This document shows positions 9,820 to 29,531 of a DNA stretch of 32,742 nucleotides, piece by piece (positions within the stretch are counted from its first letter, which is position 1; each line of letters opens with the position of its first letter). Under the pieces are notes generated by a model. It made no database searches. It was not told the DNA's origin and was given only the letters and a program-made list of their open reading frames with translations. The stretch is taken from positions 33,856 through 66,597 of IMG/VR virus record IMGVR_UViG_3300030099_002795; one strand, 5' to 3'. This DNA comes from a virus. The translations under genes and the position numbers were made by a program.

Positions 9820-12800
9820 TCACCACACTTGATATGAAGCAAACCATTCTTGTGCTTCAGTAAAAGAAGGTTTCCTATGAAACACTCCAACTTCACTTAG
9901 AAATCCTGAGAAACTAATAGGTCCGGCGTTGTTTAAACCATTCCCGCCTCCGGTCACTCTACCATAGGTGGGAGTAAGACTACTAGATATTAGATAATCA
10001 GTAAAGTAGTTGTGAAAATTTAAATTTGGAACGCCACCTTGACTAGATGTTCCGTGTAATCGGACATAAGGCGCACCTAATAATGCACCACCTATGGTAT
10101 GTTGCCCAACATTTCTATTGTTAAATGAACCCCCAACGGTGTAGGGAACTGCAACTGCCGCTACTGGATGATCTGCTGTTCCTCCCAAGTAACCAGTTTG
10201 TCTAGTTTCAAATGTAGTTTGAGCATTTGGAGAGGGATTTACTGTGCCATAATGGGTATCAGCAGTAACAGTTATGTGGTCTGTAAAATCAAATATACCT
10301 GCGGTTACAACACCATCAGCCGGATTAGTTATGCCTACCGTGTTGCCTATGTAACAGAATGTTTGATTAGCAGTATTATCCCTGCCTATCATTACAAAAG
10401 TCCAACCTGTCGTATCAATACTTATACTATTAAGACCTATTCCTGGGATTCCTAAAGGCGTAAGAAGGCTTGCATCTAGCAATCCCGAACTTGTATAATG
10501 TGATAACGCAATCTGTATTTGTTGTAAATTTCCAGCAGGGGTGCTGCCGCCTATGTGCAAACCGTATGGCTTACCTACATTTGTGCCATCATCATATATT
10601 GAATGAAATACTGGTCCGGATATTTGGCCTACTGCACCTGGCTTCATAATTGCAGATATAGCCCATGAACCAGATGTCGGATCTAATGTAGTCAATTCAC
10701 CGTGTTCGCTAGTAGCAACATTACTAGCGATTCGTGAAACATGAACTGCACATGGAAAATCCCAATCTAAAACCACACTTGTTCCTTCAATTCCATTAGT
10801 AATTCCTGGACCTGATGCCATACTAGCGTTTCTAACCATTCGTAAAGGAACTCCATATATATCTTCAACCCATTCGCTAGGATTGCTGTTACTGCCTCCT
10901 TGTGAGGCTGAACTAATGGTTATGTCCTCAGTAGAAGCACCTAAACCATTAGTTAATCTTGCATAAAAATTACACCAACCTTTTGGGTTGCCATTTGTAT
11001 CTATGTAGGTTTTGTGGTGAATACCTCTTAGGGTATTGTCATTGATTGTATCTTCATTTGTAATCTCAGTAAAATCCAATACTGCTGAGGGGCGTTGCAT
11101 TTCTCCAACATTCATGAAACCTGCAAAGGGTTCTGTCAAAGAACCGGCATACAAGTGTTTGTAGAAACTTGTGTAATCATTTTTAGAGCCATCTGCTATA
11201 TCAAAAACTAATCCAGTATGACCCCCACCAAAAAACAATATTGCCTCTCTATCAATAGGAGGATATATAATTTCTATATCTATACCAACTACCTCATTAG
11301 TTCCTTGGAAAAATTGTTCTTTTAAATCATCATTGCCATCCAATGGTAATAAATTCATATATGCTTCCCCATCAGGGAATGCCCCCAAAATGAAAGGAAG
11401 GCCAAAATCAGTAAAAGTCGCAAGAATGCCGCCTACTCTTGCATATCCTTGGCTACCATCCCACCCGCTTCTTTGTAAGTATTCAAGGAATTTACTATCA
11501 ATCGTCACTCTATCCAAATTATTACCTATTACACCGTATGCAGTCCCATGAACAGTGCTTGCTTTTGTTGTGACTACATAACGCTGACCAATTCCATTAT
11601 ATTTTCTCAATGTTTCTGTTGAATCTAAATGGTGAGTAAGAGAGCCATGTGGAGAACCAGTAAAAGTTGTAATAGGAACAAATGTTTCGCCATCCGAACC
11701 TATTGGCAAAGGGGCAGGGAATGAGTTGGTTTGATAGGATCTGCTATTTGTAGCCAACAGACCTCCATAACCAAATGCTTGTATTGGGTTATATGGGTAA
11801 TAACTATTATTTTCTAACCAAACCGCAAAGTTTCTACCTGCTGCACCTGGAACTGTGCTATGAATCACTATTGTAAATCCTTTTTCACCACTTTTGGATT
11901 CAACTGCTTTACCTCTAAATGCACGTGCATATCCTAAGTGAGAACCTTCATCATCAAAAGTTGAAAAATCATCTTTTAGAAAAGTGCGAAAAGCAGAACG
12001 ACCATTGCTAAATTTCGCTTCAGGAACACCCGCCATATTTATTCTTCTAATTAATTCATCAACACACTCATCAAATGATACAGCCCCAACTGCAATATCT
12101 CTAAATGAATATCTAAAAGGCACGACATAATTTAAATTAGCCATTTCTCCTGATGGCTCATGTCTTTCACTATGACCTTTCAAGCCCAAATAATCGGTAT
12201 AACATATTATTGGTTCTTTTAATATGCGATTATTATCTGTGCCATATTCTTGAAAAATATCCCATTGTAAAATATCGATATCGTGGTCTAGCATGTAAAT
12301 AAAATTAAAATCACCTCTTAAATTATCGGAACTATTTCTTGTAACAAATTTATTTGTGTCTAACCCCAATGCAAAACTTAATTGTGTGACCAAAGCATCT
12401 CTTCTAGTCGTTAATAGCCCCCCGACTCCAAAAGCATCCATTTGACATTTTAGTGTTCCAGTATGTGCTGAAGGACCTATGTTAGTATTCTCATTTACTA
12501 TCACGCCCCCCAACTGAACAGTAGCACCTGTGAACATATAGGAAGTGGCGGTTTCAAATCCCCCTCCTAAGTTACCTCCGATGTCTAAAAGAATATCCTC
12601 TCTAGGCATTCTAATGAATGCTTGGTCTACATAAAGTCTATTCAATGTGTTATCTGCATTAACCACTCTAAAGTGTAGATATGAACAATATGTCAAATCA
12701 GGTCTAGCCGTTGGTGCTATAATCCCTTCGCCAACTATTACATGACTTTTTTGTGTATTGGTGAAATTAATGTTGGCTTCATTTACAAAAGCCTCAGCAT

Positions 12801-19041: not shown

Positions 19042-20466
19042 TCATATCACCCCTCTTGTAAAGCCTCCACCACGCTTACGGGTTCGTAATACTTTACTTA
19101 CTTCATCACTAACTGCTTTGGCAATCTCTTTTGCGTTTCCTCCGCCTTTTACATTTATGTTGATATTATTGGTATTACTGCCACCCATTGCACCATCTGT
19201 TTTTATTGAAACTGGTATTGTTCTGCCATCTGGTAAAGGCACTATTGCTTCAGTTCCATGCAAAGTAACAGGGTAGCCACTAGACGGGCCAGAAGCGATT
19301 CCACCCTCACTAAATCCTAAGAATCCGGCTGCTTTACCCAATCCGCCTCCTATTTTTTCAACTACACCTCCTATATTATCAACAACAAATTCAATTACAT
19401 CTAAGATAGGTTCTAAGAATGCCATGATTGCATCAACAGCCCCCTCTATGAAAGGTGATACTTTATTGAACAAGCCCATTATTGCTTTGAGAATAAGTCC
19501 TATAACCCCTAATACTATTCTTAGAATAGGTCCTGCTACTGAGAAAATAGCCTTAACTAATCTAATCAAAGGTGGTGCAACCCTCGCTACAACTTTGATA
19601 AATACTGCAAGGAATATGCCGAAAAGATTGACTACTACCCCCGCAATCATACTCACATATTGTATGACTGTTACTGCGAAATCTATTATTCCACTTGAAA
19701 ACAAAAAGTCCACAAAGCCCGAAATTACATTACCAAAGAAATCAATAATCCCTCCGACTGTAACTCCTGTATCGTCTAAGGCTTTTTTGACAGTAGTGAA
19801 TGCTACCGCTACAAGTCCTAAAAACATGCCAAAAGAATCTAATATTGTTTGAAAAATCCCTGCTTCATCCATTCGTGTAACAATATCTCCAATGCCAGTG
19901 AATACTGCACCTATCAATCCAAGGAATATTTGTATTATGCTACCCAACAAAGAAAATATTTGTTCTAACATAGGGATGAGCAAACCTCCTATATTAGAAA
20001 AATCAAGATTACCGATTGCAGATGTTACAGCACTAATGGCCCCCATGAAAGCATCAACTATTGATCTACCCGCTTCTAATACATCACCAAACGCACCTGC
20101 GGCAACCTCGCCCCCGCCAAACTCCTTTGTAAGTAAGAATATCGCAGCACCTACTAAAGCAAAAATTCCTAAAACAAATATCATAATCGTGTTCACTTGC
20201 TTTAGAAATCCTAAGAATTTGCCAAACGGCTTTGTAAGTTCATCTACTGATTCTGTAACTTCATCTGTTTTATCAGCAAATTTGCCAAACAAGTCAGCCG
20301 TAGTTTCAGTTGTATTTTTTACATCAATATATAATTTATAGAATGGCCCTAACGCTTTATTGAGAACTTTATACCGTAGATTTAGTAAGTTGATTGATTT
20401 GCCTTGTTCTTTATAAATTGAAGTCATTTTTGCTTGAGATGCAATAAAATTATCCAACTCAGTCAC
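19042..20466 (-). CDS. tape measure protein
   Basis: The open frame begins with TTG at 20472, but I choose GTG 20466 (474 residues), because GGTGAT lies 5 nt upstream of it and directly abuts the TTG. The GGTGAT is itself coding sequence at the end of the preceding chaperone ORF. A run of hydrophobic segments (TIMIFVLGIFALVGAAIFLL near residue 90-115, then many Ile/Val/Phe/Gly-rich helices to about 370) is typical of tape measures. So is the C-terminal signature GYPVTLHGTEAIVPLPDG with GRTIPVSI (about 395-420) and the Asn/Gly/Lys-rich tail. The length is short for the family. At about 1.5 A per residue it would suit a tail of roughly 70 nm, which is a rough rule only. It follows the chaperone pair, the usual order. 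Confidence 0.85.
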   Translation of the reverse strand: MTELDNFIASQAKMTSIYKEQGKSINLLNLRYKVLNKALGPFYKLYIDVKNTTETTADLFGKFADKTDEVTESVDELTKPFGKFLGFLKQVNTIMIFVLGIFALVGAAIFLLTKEFGGGEVAAGAFGDVLEAGRSIVDAFMGAISAVTSAIGNLDFSNIGGLLIPMLEQIFSLLGSIIQIFLGLIGAVFTGIGDIVTRMDEAGIFQTILDSFGMFLGLVAVAFTTVKKALDDTGVTVGGIIDFFGNVISGFVDFLFSSGIIDFAVTVIQYVSMIAGVVVNLFGIFLAVFIKVVARVAPPLIRLVKAIFSVAGPILRIVLGVIGLILKAIMGLFNKVSPFIEGAVDAIMAFLEPILDVIEFVVDNIGGVVEKIGGGLGKAAGFLGFSEGGIASGPSSGYPVTLHGTEAIVPLPDGRTIPVSIKTDGAMGGSNTNNININVKGGGNAKEIAKAVSDEVSKVLRTRKRGGGFTRGVI

Positions 20467-20468
20467 TT

Positions 20469-20816
20469 TCAATCACCGCTTAGTTTAGCGTTATGTCTGT
20501 CAAAGAAATCGTATAAAGCCGACTCATCGCTTGTAGTGCGTAACGGTTGTCCCTTATTATTTCCACCCATCTTCATCTGTTTTTCGGCCTCTTTTTGCAT
20601 TCTTTCTAGCATCTCGGCTCGTTTTTCAGTAGCGGCTCTAACAATCATATAATCTAACATTACTCTTTGTGGAGGCATATCATCCCAAAAATGAGGGGGG
20701 CATTTGAAATGCGACCCCAAAGCAAAAGTCATTGCTTGAAATGAGAGTATTGTCATTTGAACTACATTTAGTTCTGGTCTTTCATGAGGATCTGTATCTT
20801 CATCCAAAAAGGACAC
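20469..20816 (-). CDS. tail assembly chaperone, downstream ORF (T-like)
   Basis: This is a 115-residue ORF with a helical, Met- and charge-rich sequence (ATEKRAEMLERMQKEAEKQMKM). It starts with GTG 20816, with GAGG 5 nt upstream, so it might be made on its own. Its frame is also open upstream of that GTG all the way back to the heptamer at 20834-20840 inside the preceding ORF, with no stop between. It can therefore be read as the C-terminal part of a frameshift fusion of about 240 residues. This is the arrangement of lambda G and G-T chaperones. Position between the tail-tube/SAP genes and the tape measure fits. The product is expected to bind the tape measure during tail assembly. Sequence similarity to known T proteins was not tested. 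Confidence 0.65.
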   Translation of the reverse strand: MSFLDEDTDPHERPELNVVQMTILSFQAMTFALGSHFKCPPHFWDDMPPQRVMLDYMIVRAATEKRAEMLERMQKEAEKQMKMGGNNKGQPLRTTSDESALYDFFDRHNAKLSGD

Positions 20817-20830
20817 TAAATCCTCATAAC

Positions 20831-21190
20831 TTACCCCAAAGGGTTCACATCACCTGCAAATTGTCCTATAATATCTGTAAGGTCTGGTAGAACCTTTCTT
20901 ATCTCAGCCCCTACCTCCGGCGTTAGATTGAGCAAATCTTTTTTCGACATTTTAGGTTCTGTATCGGATATGCAATTTACTAAAACATATCTCCAATATC
21001 CACCTAAATCTATATTGGGTGCAACCTCTCCATCATCACCCGTTTTGAATGTTACAAATTGTGACATTGCTTCTTGTTGTTGAATCCATGAAAGTGGTTT
21101 TACAAATACTATCAACTCACCTACTGGTGTTTGAAGTATATGCTTTTCAGGATTACTACTTAGAATGAAAGGATTATTCTTCATTGCCAT
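20831..21190 (-). CDS. tail assembly chaperone, upstream ORF (G-like)
   Basis: This is a 119-residue ORF. I choose ATG 21190 over the upstream TTG 21199, because GAGGT lies about 8 nt upstream of it. It overlaps the SAP gene by 17 bases. The sequence opens with FILSSNPEKHILQTPVGEL, followed by IVFVKPLSWIQQQEAM and a helical C-terminal half, a pattern like the small tail assembly chaperones of siphoviruses. The ORF stops at TAA 20831-20833, directly after an in-frame TTTGGGG. A -1 slip there would fuse it to the T-like ORF. Without slipping the product is the shorter G-like protein, made in excess in the lambda model. Confidence 0.65.
   Translation of the reverse strand: MAMKNNPFILSSNPEKHILQTPVGELIVFVKPLSWIQQQEAMSQFVTFKTGDDGEVAPNIDLGGYWRYVLVNCISDTEPKMSKKDLLNLTPEVGAEIRKVLPDLTDIIGQFAGDVNPLG
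20834..20840 (-). other. putative programmed -1 frameshift site, T TTG GGG before TAA
   Basis: Read on the minus strand, the zero-frame codons at the end of the G-like ORF are CCT TTG GGG TAA. The heptamer T TTG GGG fits the X XXY YYZ pattern for tandem -1 slipping. After a -1 shift the reading continues GTA AGT TAT GAG GAT TTA GTG TCC and runs without a stop into the downstream T-like ORF. The predicted fusion is about 240 residues against 119 for the unshifted product. A possible stimulatory pairing is GAGGAT at 20820-20825 with ATCCTC at 20786-20791 on the minus strand, but it is only 6 bp with a 28-base loop. Frame logic is direct from the sequence. That slipping happens is inferred from the lambda G/G-T precedent. 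Confidence 0.65.
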
Positions 21191-21545
21191 CAGCAACAAC
21201 CTCTTCCTCTACGACTTCTTCTGTTTCGACTACTTCATCTTCCTCATCAGTAGTGTTTTCAACCAATCGAGCAATCAATTGTGCTTTGTTACCATAAACT
21301 GGCAACTCTCTATTCTGCAACTCAACTCTAAGTTCAGTTACAGTAAGTGAATCCCATCGGTTTGTTACAACTTCTTCTATTGGCGCAGGGTCGCCATTTA
21401 CGGACTTAGCAAGGTTAGGTAAAAGAGTGTGAACTTTTACTTCATCTGCTGACAATCCTGGACCTGCTACAACAGATGTTCCATTAATCTTCCAATCTAA
21501 ACTCTTTTTTTTGCCATCAACAACTACATATCCTGTCAATCTCAT
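21174..21545 (-). CDS. SAP-domain protein with acidic tail
   Basis: This is a 123-residue protein. ATG 21545 follows GGTGAT by 3 nt. Residues about 64-98 are a SAP-like helix-extension-helix (WDSLTVTELRVELQNRELP, then GNKAQLIARLVEN), a fold best known for nucleic-acid or protein binding. The last 25 residues are almost all Glu, Asp and Val. The first 60 residues (VVVDGKKKSLDWKINGTSVV) look like a small beta domain. It lies between the tail-tube gene and the chaperone pair, so it may be a small tail or tail-tube accessory protein. Its end overlaps the start of the G-like chaperone ORF. The SAP call is by motif shape only. Confidence 0.6.
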   Translation of the reverse strand: MRLTGYVVVDGKKKSLDWKINGTSVVAGPGLSADEVKVHTLLPNLAKSVNGDPAPIEEVVTNRWDSLTVTELRVELQNRELPVYGNKAQLIARLVENTTDEEDEVVETEEVVEEEVVADGNEE

Positions 21546-21585: not shown

Positions 21586-23790
21586 TCAATAGCCTAAATA
21601 GACACTGTTCTCTACTACTTTCAAATGGCGAACTATCAATTCTACATCAACTACGACAGCACCTTTACTATCTGGTATTTGGTGGTCTGCCTTCTTGATA
21701 GTATAATCTTCAATAGTAATAGTAGCACTTTCTCTAGTTGCATGACCACCTACTTTCTTTAGTGTCATCACAATGTCATTTTGATTGCGGTGATGTTTTC
21801 TAGTTCGCATTTGATTCCATAACTGATCGTCCTCTATTATGGCACTAAATGTAAATGAGTATTCTCTCTTTGCTTCAGTATAATCCATCGGCATTTGAAC
21901 TCCGGCTTGTTGCACTTGGTCTGTATCTAAAGATACTCCTGAATAGCCTCTAATGTAATGCCGTGTTTCATTAGAATTGTTGAGTTGGAAATTGACTTGT
22001 GTTGCACGTAAAACTGTTTGACCAAAAATACTGATATTCATGTCTTGGAACAAATATGGTTTCTCTCCGGCCATAGCAATACCACTTACACTACGATTAA
22101 CTGCGGTATCTGCAATATCTTCAAACATTCTCTTTGGAGAAAAGACACCGGCAGTATCAGTATAGTGCCTACCTGCTTCATAATCTACTTGTAATTTAAC
22201 TTCACCTTCAGTATTTGCACTAAATCCAACAGATTGAACTTTACAACCATTGTAAAGTCTTAGCAATTGTTCAGCCCCTGGTGAAGCATCATCTCTTCTA
22301 AATGATTGTTCAATCATGAAAGTTGGCAAAGATGTATCGCCAAACATTGTATGAACTACACCAAATTTCAATTCCTTAGTTGTATTGTGAATAGATGGAG
22401 AATATACTTCATTGTAAGCAATTCTTTCAACACCAGTGGTTGATGTTTGACTTGCAGTTCCATGCTTATGAGCAAAGAAAAATGGTTCTTCTACATACAG
22501 ATATTGTCCTTCTATCCCTATTACTCTCCTTAATTCACATTTTGGAATTTGTCTATTTGTAGTTGCAGCGTCTTGACCAGGGATTGTATGCAACTCACCA
22601 TCTATGATGTTAATGTAATCTCCAACTGCAAATCCGGCAATTATAGCAGAATCTAATTTGACTCGAATATCGCCTCTTTTTATTGACTCGGCAATTGGTG
22701 GTAAAACATATACCGCCTTATCTGCAACTGCCGCTAAACCGCTTGCGCTACCTCCGCCAACACCAAGGCTAATAATGTCCGATGTCCCAGTAAGTGTGGT
22801 AGTTGCCGCCGAATCAAAATTACCATAACAAGGATTACCAGTAAGGGTATTCAAGGTTTTGAATACACCACCAAACTCAGGCACTACATGGTGTGTTAAA
22901 GATATATTTTGTTTGAAAACACAAGTAACTGAAGAACCAGTCGCAGTTCCTCCGCCTACCATAGCAACCCCATGTTCAGTAATATTTGCACTAGCCAAAT
23001 CGAATACGTTACCAGTATATGCGATAACAGATACATTTGTTAAATCTATTTCACCTGTGCCATACCGATGTATTGCATATTCAGCATTTCCACCTTGCTT
23101 CAAGTTTAATTGGTCTTTAGCAGAATTGTTATTATTAGGGAGTTTAAACTGAATAAACTCTCCTTGCGATATTGCAGTATGTCCTCCTAAACCGTATCTC
23201 ATCCATCTAAAATTATGAGCATTCGCAGTAAAAGAACCACCAGTTAATGTTTCTTTACCACTTGTTAGAACATTTACATCACGACCCATTCCTATTACAT
23301 GCTGCATTCTTACATCTATGTCTGGTTCAGGTAATGAGAAATTATCTAAAAGACCAAAGAATTGGTCTGTTTTGACTCCATGTGAAGTATCAGTCATGGC
23401 AGTATCTGGAGTAGGACATCTAACTGCGTCTATTTGGAATGATGTATTAGTATCAGCAGTTTGAATTGTTGCCATTTTTGGTTGAACTGTAATTGTTTTG
23501 TTAGTGGTATCATTAGCCACAATGTAATAAGTCCGGCGTGTTGATGCGTAATCATCATTAGCGAAATTTCCACTACTACTGATTCTCAATATACAACCAA
23601 CCAATGAATTATCGGGTATTAACAATGTAGAACCGACCCAATAAGATGCAGTTCCAAGAGTGATAATGCTTGTATCATTAACCGAAGTAACCTGAAAACC
23701 AGTAGCATCACCAGTTCCATCAACTTTGAATCCTGTTTCTTTACCCCATGATATTTCTGCAACGTCACCCTTGAATATTGTATTTACCAT
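21586..23790 (-). CDS. oversized major tail tube protein
   Basis: This is a 734-residue protein. ATG 23790 follows GGTGA at about 6 nt. The second half (about 485-734) fits tail-tube proteins: LPTFMIEQSFRRDD, then RLYNGCKVQSVGFSANTEGE, VKLQVDYEAGR, and a final REYSFTFSAIIEDDQLWNQM. The N-terminal 150 residues also look tube-like or Ig-like (AEISWGKETGFKVDG). Residues about 240-420 look like an inserted Gly/Thr-rich domain. Tube proteins are usually much shorter, so insertions probably decorate the outside of the tube. It lies between the terminator-like gene and the chaperones, which fits a tube. No sheath gene is seen upstream, in line with a non-contractile tail. Confidence 0.65.
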   Translation of the reverse strand: MVNTIFKGDVAEISWGKETGFKVDGTGDATGFQVTSVNDTSIITLGTASYWVGSTLLIPDNSLVGCILRISSSGNFANDDYASTRRTYYIVANDTTNKTITVQPKMATIQTADTNTSFQIDAVRCPTPDTAMTDTSHGVKTDQFFGLLDNFSLPEPDIDVRMQHVIGMGRDVNVLTSGKETLTGGSFTANAHNFRWMRYGLGGHTAISQGEFIQFKLPNNNNSAKDQLNLKQGGNAEYAIHRYGTGEIDLTNVSVIAYTGNVFDLASANITEHGVAMVGGGTATGSSVTCVFKQNISLTHHVVPEFGGVFKTLNTLTGNPCYGNFDSAATTTLTGTSDIISLGVGGGSASGLAAVADKAVYVLPPIAESIKRGDIRVKLDSAIIAGFAVGDYINIIDGELHTIPGQDAATTNRQIPKCELRRVIGIEGQYLYVEEPFFFAHKHGTASQTSTTGVERIAYNEVYSPSIHNTTKELKFGVVHTMFGDTSLPTFMIEQSFRRDDASPGAEQLLRLYNGCKVQSVGFSANTEGEVKLQVDYEAGRHYTDTAGVFSPKRMFEDIADTAVNRSVSGIAMAGEKPYLFQDMNISIFGQTVLRATQVNFQLNNSNETRHYIRGYSGVSLDTDQVQQAGVQMPMDYTEAKREYSFTFSAIIEDDQLWNQMRTRKHHRNQNDIVMTLKKVGGHATRESATITIEDYTIKKADHQIPDSKGAVVVDVELIVRHLKVVENSVYLGY

Positions 23791-28388: not shown

Positions 28389-29531
28389 TCAAGCACTCAA
28401 ATCTCTTACTTTACCGTGTGCGCCGTAGAACAGTTGCCATAGTTCGCCCATTGTGTGGAATAGACCAACTTGACCTAGCCTGTTGATACCAAATGGATCG
28501 CCAGTTTCAATACCAGATTCGTGATAGAGAGTAGGTTTAGCAGTGCAGAAGTATGTGTAGTCTGTATCAATCATGTAGATTCTTGAAATTCCACCAGTGT
28601 CCTCTACTACATCTTTAGCAGGGATAATTGGAACACCGTTGTAAGTTGCTACAACAAAGCCGCCTTCCATACCAGGGATTCCTTGAACACCATTTACAGA
28701 TGGAGTAACTCTCTTCATCTCGGTAAATCTTTGTTGAGGCTGGAGAAGTTGTTGTATCTTTTCAATAGTGTCATATCCAGTTAGAATAATCTTTGGCTGA
28801 CCACCACGTTCCCATACTTGTCTAAACATTCCATCTAGGATGTTCAAGGTTAGAGAACGGTTAGCAGCAGCAGCGTCTACATTTGCATCATACCATTGCC
28901 TTACTGAACCTGGAGTCCTTGTAATTGAGTATTGGTTGTGGTCAGTAGTAGCAGATACAGCAGATATACCAGTAGTCTCATCGAATGAAGAGGATGTTGC
29001 CCTGTCAATTGATTCAAAGTTGTTATGTGCTGGTGTATCTACATCTCTTAGTAGCATCTTGTTAATTGATTCTGCGTGAGATTTTGACATTTCCATCTTG
29101 ATAACTGCTCTTGCATCACCTAGTCCGTCATCTTTGTCAGCAAGGAACATTGCAGTTTCGCTCAAATCGAACTTACTAGCAACAGTCTTTGGTTTTGTGC
29201 TGACTTCTTCAAATGTCGGCTTGGTGGAATCTGGTAGGATACCATTCTCTGGTAGACCGACAGCCTCATCTGGTCTGCCAGTCACAACACGCCATCCACT
29301 CTTTTCCCAAGGTTTCTTTGGCAAGATAGAGAAAGCGTTGAATTCTTGATTCAACTGTGACCATACCTTTCTACCAAAAATCGCTTGATAAGTTCCTGTT
29401 GTGCTGCTCATAAGTGGAGAGTCCGACTTTAGTAAGTCAGCACCACTGTATGCCCATGCGTTCTGCCCTGCACCTGCACCGTAATACAGGCGTTCCATAT
29501 CTTCAATTGTTCGTATATATCCTTGTGTCAT
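28389..29531 (-). CDS. major capsid protein, HK97 fold
   Basis: This is a 380-residue protein. ATG 29531 has GGTGAT 5 nt upstream, the strongest site of the head module. The middle helix (ARAVIKMEMSKSHAESINKM, about 140-165) fits the long spine helix of HK97-fold capsids. It is preceded by an E-loop-like region (SGWRVVTGRPDEAVGLPENG) and followed by the P-domain to A-domain region, including PKIILTGYDTIEKIQQLL and GGFVVATYNGVPIIPAKDVV. The C-terminal part (INRLGQVGLFHTMGELWQL) is also typical. It follows the protease/scaffold fusion, the canonical order. Length is usual for the family. Confidence 0.85.
   Translation of the reverse strand: MTQGYIRTIEDMERLYYGAGAGQNAWAYSGADLLKSDSPLMSSTTGTYQAIFGRKVWSQLNQEFNAFSILPKKPWEKSGWRVVTGRPDEAVGLPENGILPDSTKPTFEEVSTKPKTVASKFDLSETAMFLADKDDGLGDARAVIKMEMSKSHAESINKMLLRDVDTPAHNNFESIDRATSSSFDETTGISAVSATTDHNQYSITRTPGSVRQWYDANVDAAAANRSLTLNILDGMFRQVWERGGQPKIILTGYDTIEKIQQLLQPQQRFTEMKRVTPSVNGVQGIPGMEGGFVVATYNGVPIIPAKDVVEDTGGISRIYMIDTDYTYFCTAKPTLYHESGIETGDPFGINRLGQVGLFHTMGELWQLFYGAHGKVRDLSA

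Follow-up and report, generated by a model that had tools for sequence, protein, structure and literature searches.

The stretch of DNA analyzed here, referred to as the window, comprises positions 33,856-66,597 (32,742 nt) of the virus record IMGVR_UViG_3300030099_002795, a 67 kb record that is possibly partial. Window coordinates are used throughout. On the minus strand, two overlapping open reading frames (ORFs) positioned before a tape measure gene form a candidate tail assembly chaperone locus in which the second frame would be reached by programmed -1 frameshifting. Both ORFs were confirmed and their frames are offset by exactly -1. The minus-strand text at the junction is GTG AAC CCT TTG GGG TAA GTT ATG AGG ATT TAG, and the open -1 frame runs from 20849 to the stop TGA at 20471-20469 (minus strand, 126 codons). 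A preliminary description of the sequence had placed a -1 shift at TTTGGGG in this overlap; its account of the ORF overlap, the coordinates of that heptamer and the frame arithmetic proved correct on the minus strand. The elements of the junction are as follows.

20831-21190, minus strand: upstream zero-frame ORF, gpG-like tail assembly chaperone (ORF analysis, 53 relatives, AlphaFold2 (AF2), BFVD); the start is likely ATG 21190 or 21184, and TTG 21199 is possible
20837-20843, minus strand: putative slip heptamer C_CCT_TTG (56/56 distinct loci, 0 codon changes on the tree)
20834-20840, minus strand: T_TTG_GGG, the heptamer of the preliminary description (2/56 loci, not conserved)
20831-20833, minus strand: zero-frame stop TAA, one codon past the heptamer (at the same position in 56/56 loci)
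20469-20837, minus strand: predicted -1 frame extension (gpT-like domain), G-V-S-Y-E-D-L..., 122 amino acids and then TGA 20471-20469
20782-20829, minus strand: predicted stimulatory stem-loop, with a 12-bp outer stem (20829-20818 with 20793-20782) and a 7-nt spacer
20814-20816, minus strand: GTG proposed as a separate start (a start at this position in 4/56 loci, not conserved)

Related loci were gathered by searches with the upstream-ORF protein, which yielded 17 and then 53 and 54 IMG/VR loci, and a second chaperone clade was found via the major capsid protein and then extended. The final set was defined by a hidden Markov model scan of all gathered sequences with deduplication at 97% nucleotide identity, giving 56 distinct loci drawn from many metagenomes, plus the haloarchaeal virus HVTV-1. 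The loci were ascertained independently of the slip site, since the searches were patterned on other segments of the protein or on the capsid gene. Protein searches of annotated phage records and genome contigs revealed no relative.

The sequence NNC CCT TTG GNN followed by TAA, TGA or TAG was present in all 56 distinct loci, with C_CCT_TTG in the zero frame within the ORF overlap in each case. On a 56-taxon tree, the Pro CCT and Leu TTG codons showed no changes, compared to 16-29 changes at each of 15 further conserved positions with four- or six-fold codon degeneracy, so that conservation of the heptamer exceeds the constraint on the protein. The codon 5′ of CCT changed 21 times and is represented by eight codons for seven amino acids, but its third base was always C; elsewhere in the gene just 17-44% of codons for these seven amino acids end in C. 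In-frame T_TTG_GGG and in-frame C_CCT_TTG each occur three times among the ~20,800 codons of the record. Thus, a bare match to either heptamer is unremarkable, and the conservation beyond chance falls on C_CCT_TTG and not on T_TTG_GGG. Two further in-frame copies of C_CCT_TTG in the window, at 11713 and 16643 on the minus strand, lie midway through large structural genes, far from stops.

The heptamer T_TTG_GGG (20840-20834) fits the X_XXY_YYZ pattern in the window and in one close relative. These are the only two of the 56 loci that possess it; at the same position the others have TTTGGAA, TTTGGGA, TTTGGGC, TTTGGCA, TTTGGTA and further variants. Absence of the motif from relatives had been named beforehand as an observation that would count against it. 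The motif is lacking in 54 of the 56 loci and this heptamer is therefore rejected in favor of C_CCT_TTG, the conserved heptamer one codon upstream. Moreover, GGN, the -1 Gly codon, starts with the final G of TTG. Thus -1 coding is already conserved where a slip on T_TTG_GGG would still have its A-site codon read in the zero frame, and such a slip leaves the invariant CCC before TTTG unexplained. Slippage at T_TTG_GGG is refuted comparatively and is judged highly improbable. A motif reading of a single genome would pick the wrong slip site here, which the comparison corrects by one codon.

The position at which the reading frame switches was apparent from the pattern of codon conservation. Through TTG, the conserved frame is the zero frame. 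The last zero-frame codon after TTG varies (GAN, GGN, GCN or GTN, specifying Glu, Gly, Ala, Asp or Val), whereas the -1 frame after TTG specifies Gly in 56/56 loci and then Ile, Leu or Val. The shift is confined to ~10 nt in four loci, where a -1 frame stop is located immediately 5′ of the heptamer. The zero-frame stop is situated one codon past the heptamer in every locus. Correspondingly, the second -1 codon ends in TA or TG in 56/56 loci compared to 52% at other positions for such residues, and Ile at this codon is ATA in 40/40 instances compared to 92/228 elsewhere. The zero-frame stop is therefore maintained through constraint on the second -1 codon, which argues that both the short and the long products are under selection. 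A single-frame fusion of the two ORFs was not found in any of the 56 loci. Comparison of the loci demonstrates the site, direction and exact switch point of the predicted shift, as well as the coding status of both frames.

These patterns also bear on whether the locus produces two separate proteins, with the downstream ORF translated by reinitiation or from its own start at GTG 20816. The window does possess this GTG with GAGG 5-6 nt upstream, but a start at the GTG position is shared by only 4/56 loci and in 17/56 none of the first 25 codons of the -1 ORF is ATG, GTG or TTG. Furthermore, the GAGG sequence upstream of GTG 20816 falls inside the predicted stem, and a separate start accounts neither for the invariant C_CCT_TTG nor for the adjoining -1 Gly. 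In the absence of conserved starts, internal initiation at GTG 20816 was ruled out, and production of two independent proteins is considered very unlikely. Transcriptional slippage, or an error of sequencing or assembly, could be envisaged only at the short C, T and G runs. These runs are just 3-4 bases, the same split recurs throughout the 56 distinct loci, which come from many metagenomes, and the position of the stop is under constraint, which together make this explanation barely credible.

RNA structure downstream of the heptamer was assessed in the window and its relatives. The predicted window stem-loop (20829-20782), with its 12-bp outer stem starting 7 nt past the heptamer, gave a z-score of -4.7. 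When synonymous codons were shuffled within the -1 ORF, 51-nt windows placed 0-2 codons past the site had a mean z of -1.6 over the 56 loci, compared to values between -0.6 and +0.3 in the same test further into the ORF. In an arm-swap test, native stem arms paired better than arms exchanged between loci (mean z -1.07; controls at six places, mean z -0.36 to 0.0). The shuffle and arm-swap tests support the presence of a predicted downstream structure in the window and in most clades. An upstream Shine-Dalgarno-like stimulator also was considered. Predicted pairing was fairly strong, with a mean of -8 kcal/mol, yet no better than in synonymous shuffles (z 0.01), and such a stimulator is not supported.

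Overall, the tail chaperone very probably is made in two forms via a programmed -1 frameshift at C_CCU_UUG. The conserved heptamer and the exact frame switch in the 56 loci bear out the frameshift posited originally, albeit at a different site. Most ribosomes would read to TAA 20833-20831 to yield a short gpG-like protein. In a minority, tRNA-Pro on CCU in the P site and tRNA-Leu on UUG in the A site would slip one base back to CCC and UUU, probably with help from the stem-loop 7 nt further on. Reading would then continue as GGG GUA AGU UAU GAG GAU UUA... to generate a gpGT-like fusion with the domain encoded in the -1 frame. We infer how the tRNAs move, how efficiently they slip and what part the hairpin plays in the ribosome. 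In a variant of the mechanism, a lone tRNA in the P site may slip instead of the tandem pair: tRNA-Leu at UUG, or tRNA-Pro at CCU while the A site is unoccupied. Single-tRNA P-site slips are known in other systems, and for a GGG anticodon pairing is better on CCC than on CCU, whereas re-pairing from UUG to UUU is weaker. As all seven bases of C_CCT_TTG are fixed, which is best fitted by tandem slippage, the single-tRNA variant is thought rather unlikely. The frameshift finding is the same with either form of slip.

Several observations weigh against frameshifting at C_CCU_UUG aided by a downstream stem. The 56 loci are mutually related and therefore are not 56 independent trials. Re-pairing of Leu-tRNA from UUG to UUU is imperfect at the third position, and the final G of the heptamer falls outside the usual X_XXY_YYZ rule (PMC8211752). 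The two mid-gene in-frame copies of C_CCT_TTG imply that the heptamer alone presumably is insufficient; these sites constitute natural controls for slipping by the heptamer alone. RNAalifold returned no consensus pairs for 22 same-length loci because the stems take different registers, and structure was therefore assessed by swapping arms and by shuffling synonymous codons. Finally, ten close relatives that still carry C_CCT_TTG (L002, L005-L008, L011, L012, L040, L042 and L045) have only a weak stem, and another stimulator may act there. In view of the negative RNAalifold result, the registers that vary between clades and the ten weak-stem relatives, the downstream stem is supported but not universal.

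The genes that surround the junction in the window include the following.

19042-20472, minus strand: tape measure protein (PHROG tape measure matches, E 1e-7), with a 4-nt overlap with the chaperone stop
21174-21545, minus strand: ORF with a SAP domain (Pfam SAP, E 2.8e-9), located between the chaperone and the tail tube candidate
21586-23790, minus strand: tail tube candidate (PF18906, E 1e-5, just below the curated cut-off)
28389-29531, minus strand: major capsid protein (phrog_24667, E 3.7e-49; nearest annotated relatives are Haloarcula tailed viruses)

The layout corresponds to that of G/GT loci: two overlapping ORFs precede the tape measure gene and are downstream of the below-cut-off tail tube candidate. 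The SAP-domain ORF overlaps the chaperone start and contains an unusual domain for a tail module. The AF2 model of the upstream protein (pLDDT 81) matches the fold of annotated tail assembly chaperones in BFVD, the best named match being Haloarcula hispanica tailed virus 2 (E 1.6e-5), and the protein is a distant homologue of the HVTV-1 chaperone. With the PHROG tape measure matches, these results uphold the initial proposal of a tail assembly chaperone before the tape measure gene. No fold match to the model was detected in the PDB, and no family match to the protein in Pfam or PHROGs. The -1 domain was modeled poorly by AF2 (pLDDT 67.5), matched no PHROGs family and showed only a trivial match to its HVTV-1 counterpart. 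Close to its C-terminus, the -1 ORF carries an RTTSD motif (20526-20540, minus strand) that is invariant in relatives and has low synonymous variation.

The major capsid protein matches HCTV-1 and HVTV-1 by tblastn, and genes for a group II chaperonin and an ERCC4 nuclease are present in the record. The thermosome-like group II chaperonin gene is at L023:10814-12400 in the same virus record. Chaperonins have been described in viruses of MGII (PMC5332604) and ERCC4 nucleases in such viruses (PMC10160649). Together with the halovirus-like capsid protein, the group II chaperonin and the ERCC4 nuclease form a combination that is shared with the magroviruses, which are Poseidoniales viruses (Aoguangviridae, Apasviridae and Nishimura MGII clade 1), and the relatives are ~100 kb, in line with magroviruses. 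Judged by its gene content, the virus is magrovirus-like and the host would be Poseidoniales; an archaeal host had been raised as a possibility at the outset and this agrees with it. No virus-encoded tRNAs were found.

Lambda and most long-tailed phages are known to use -1 frameshifting in their tail chaperone genes. The locus resembles lambda gpG/gpGT and its counterparts in the order of chaperone, -1 extension and tape measure, in the -1 direction, in the predicted short and extended products and in a site near the 3′ end of the first ORF. If lambda is a guide, the tape measure protein would be bound through the zero-frame part and tail tube subunits brought in through the -1 domain, and the product ratio needed for assembly would depend on how often the ribosome slips. 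However, lambda slips at G_GGA_AAG, whereas here the site would be C_CCU_UUG with a stop one codon past the heptamer, and no sequence match to phage families in Pfam or PHROGs was detectable.

Among archaeal viruses, -1 frameshifts have been proposed, as predictions, for the tail chaperones of HVTV-1, HCTV-1, -2 and -5 (PMC5009743, PMC8211752), and the present locus is therefore not the first archaeal case in which -1 recoding has been proposed. The haloarchaeal tailed viruses likewise are archaeal and possess a related capsid protein, and the distantly homologous HVTV-1 chaperone is encoded directly before a tape measure gene of similar length. In contrast, the site in HVTV-1 is GGGAAAG, whereas the one heptamer C_CCT_TTG is fixed across the set described here. 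West Nile virus uses a C_CCU_UUU frameshift (PMC11507841). This flavivirus site has the same first six bases and the same downstream-structure logic (PMC11507841), but the virus and gene are unrelated, the last base is U and the ribosome is eukaryotic, and the likeness is mechanistic only. The International Committee on Taxonomy of Viruses profile of the magrovirus families labels a tail assembly chaperone (PMC10768690). No mention of frameshifting in magroviruses was found in the magrovirus literature checked, which did not cover the primary Philosof et al. report; PMC8651126 was the only paper searched to contain both 'magrovirus' and 'frameshift', and there the term occurs once, as 'frameshifting' in a cited title on cobalt chelatase.

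The predicted frameshift at this locus is of a known kind, but with a new heptamer, in a new virus group and with unusually strict conservation. Fixation at the level of individual bases across 56 distinct ocean-virus loci is about the strongest comparative evidence attainable, and the signal is a compact testable sequence of <100 nt that is suited to archaeal reporters. It is possible, although speculative, that C_CCU_UUG is the one heptamer on which Poseidoniales ribosomes slip well owing to properties of the host tRNA-Pro and tRNA-Leu, with the stop one codon later forming part of the signal. The heptamer then would be a fixed recoding signal of a large archaeal virus group, in contrast to bacterial phages and haloviruses, whose sites are A-rich or G/A-rich. 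By this analysis, frameshifting in tail chaperones would extend to magrovirus-like viruses, whose presumed hosts are abundant ocean archaea.
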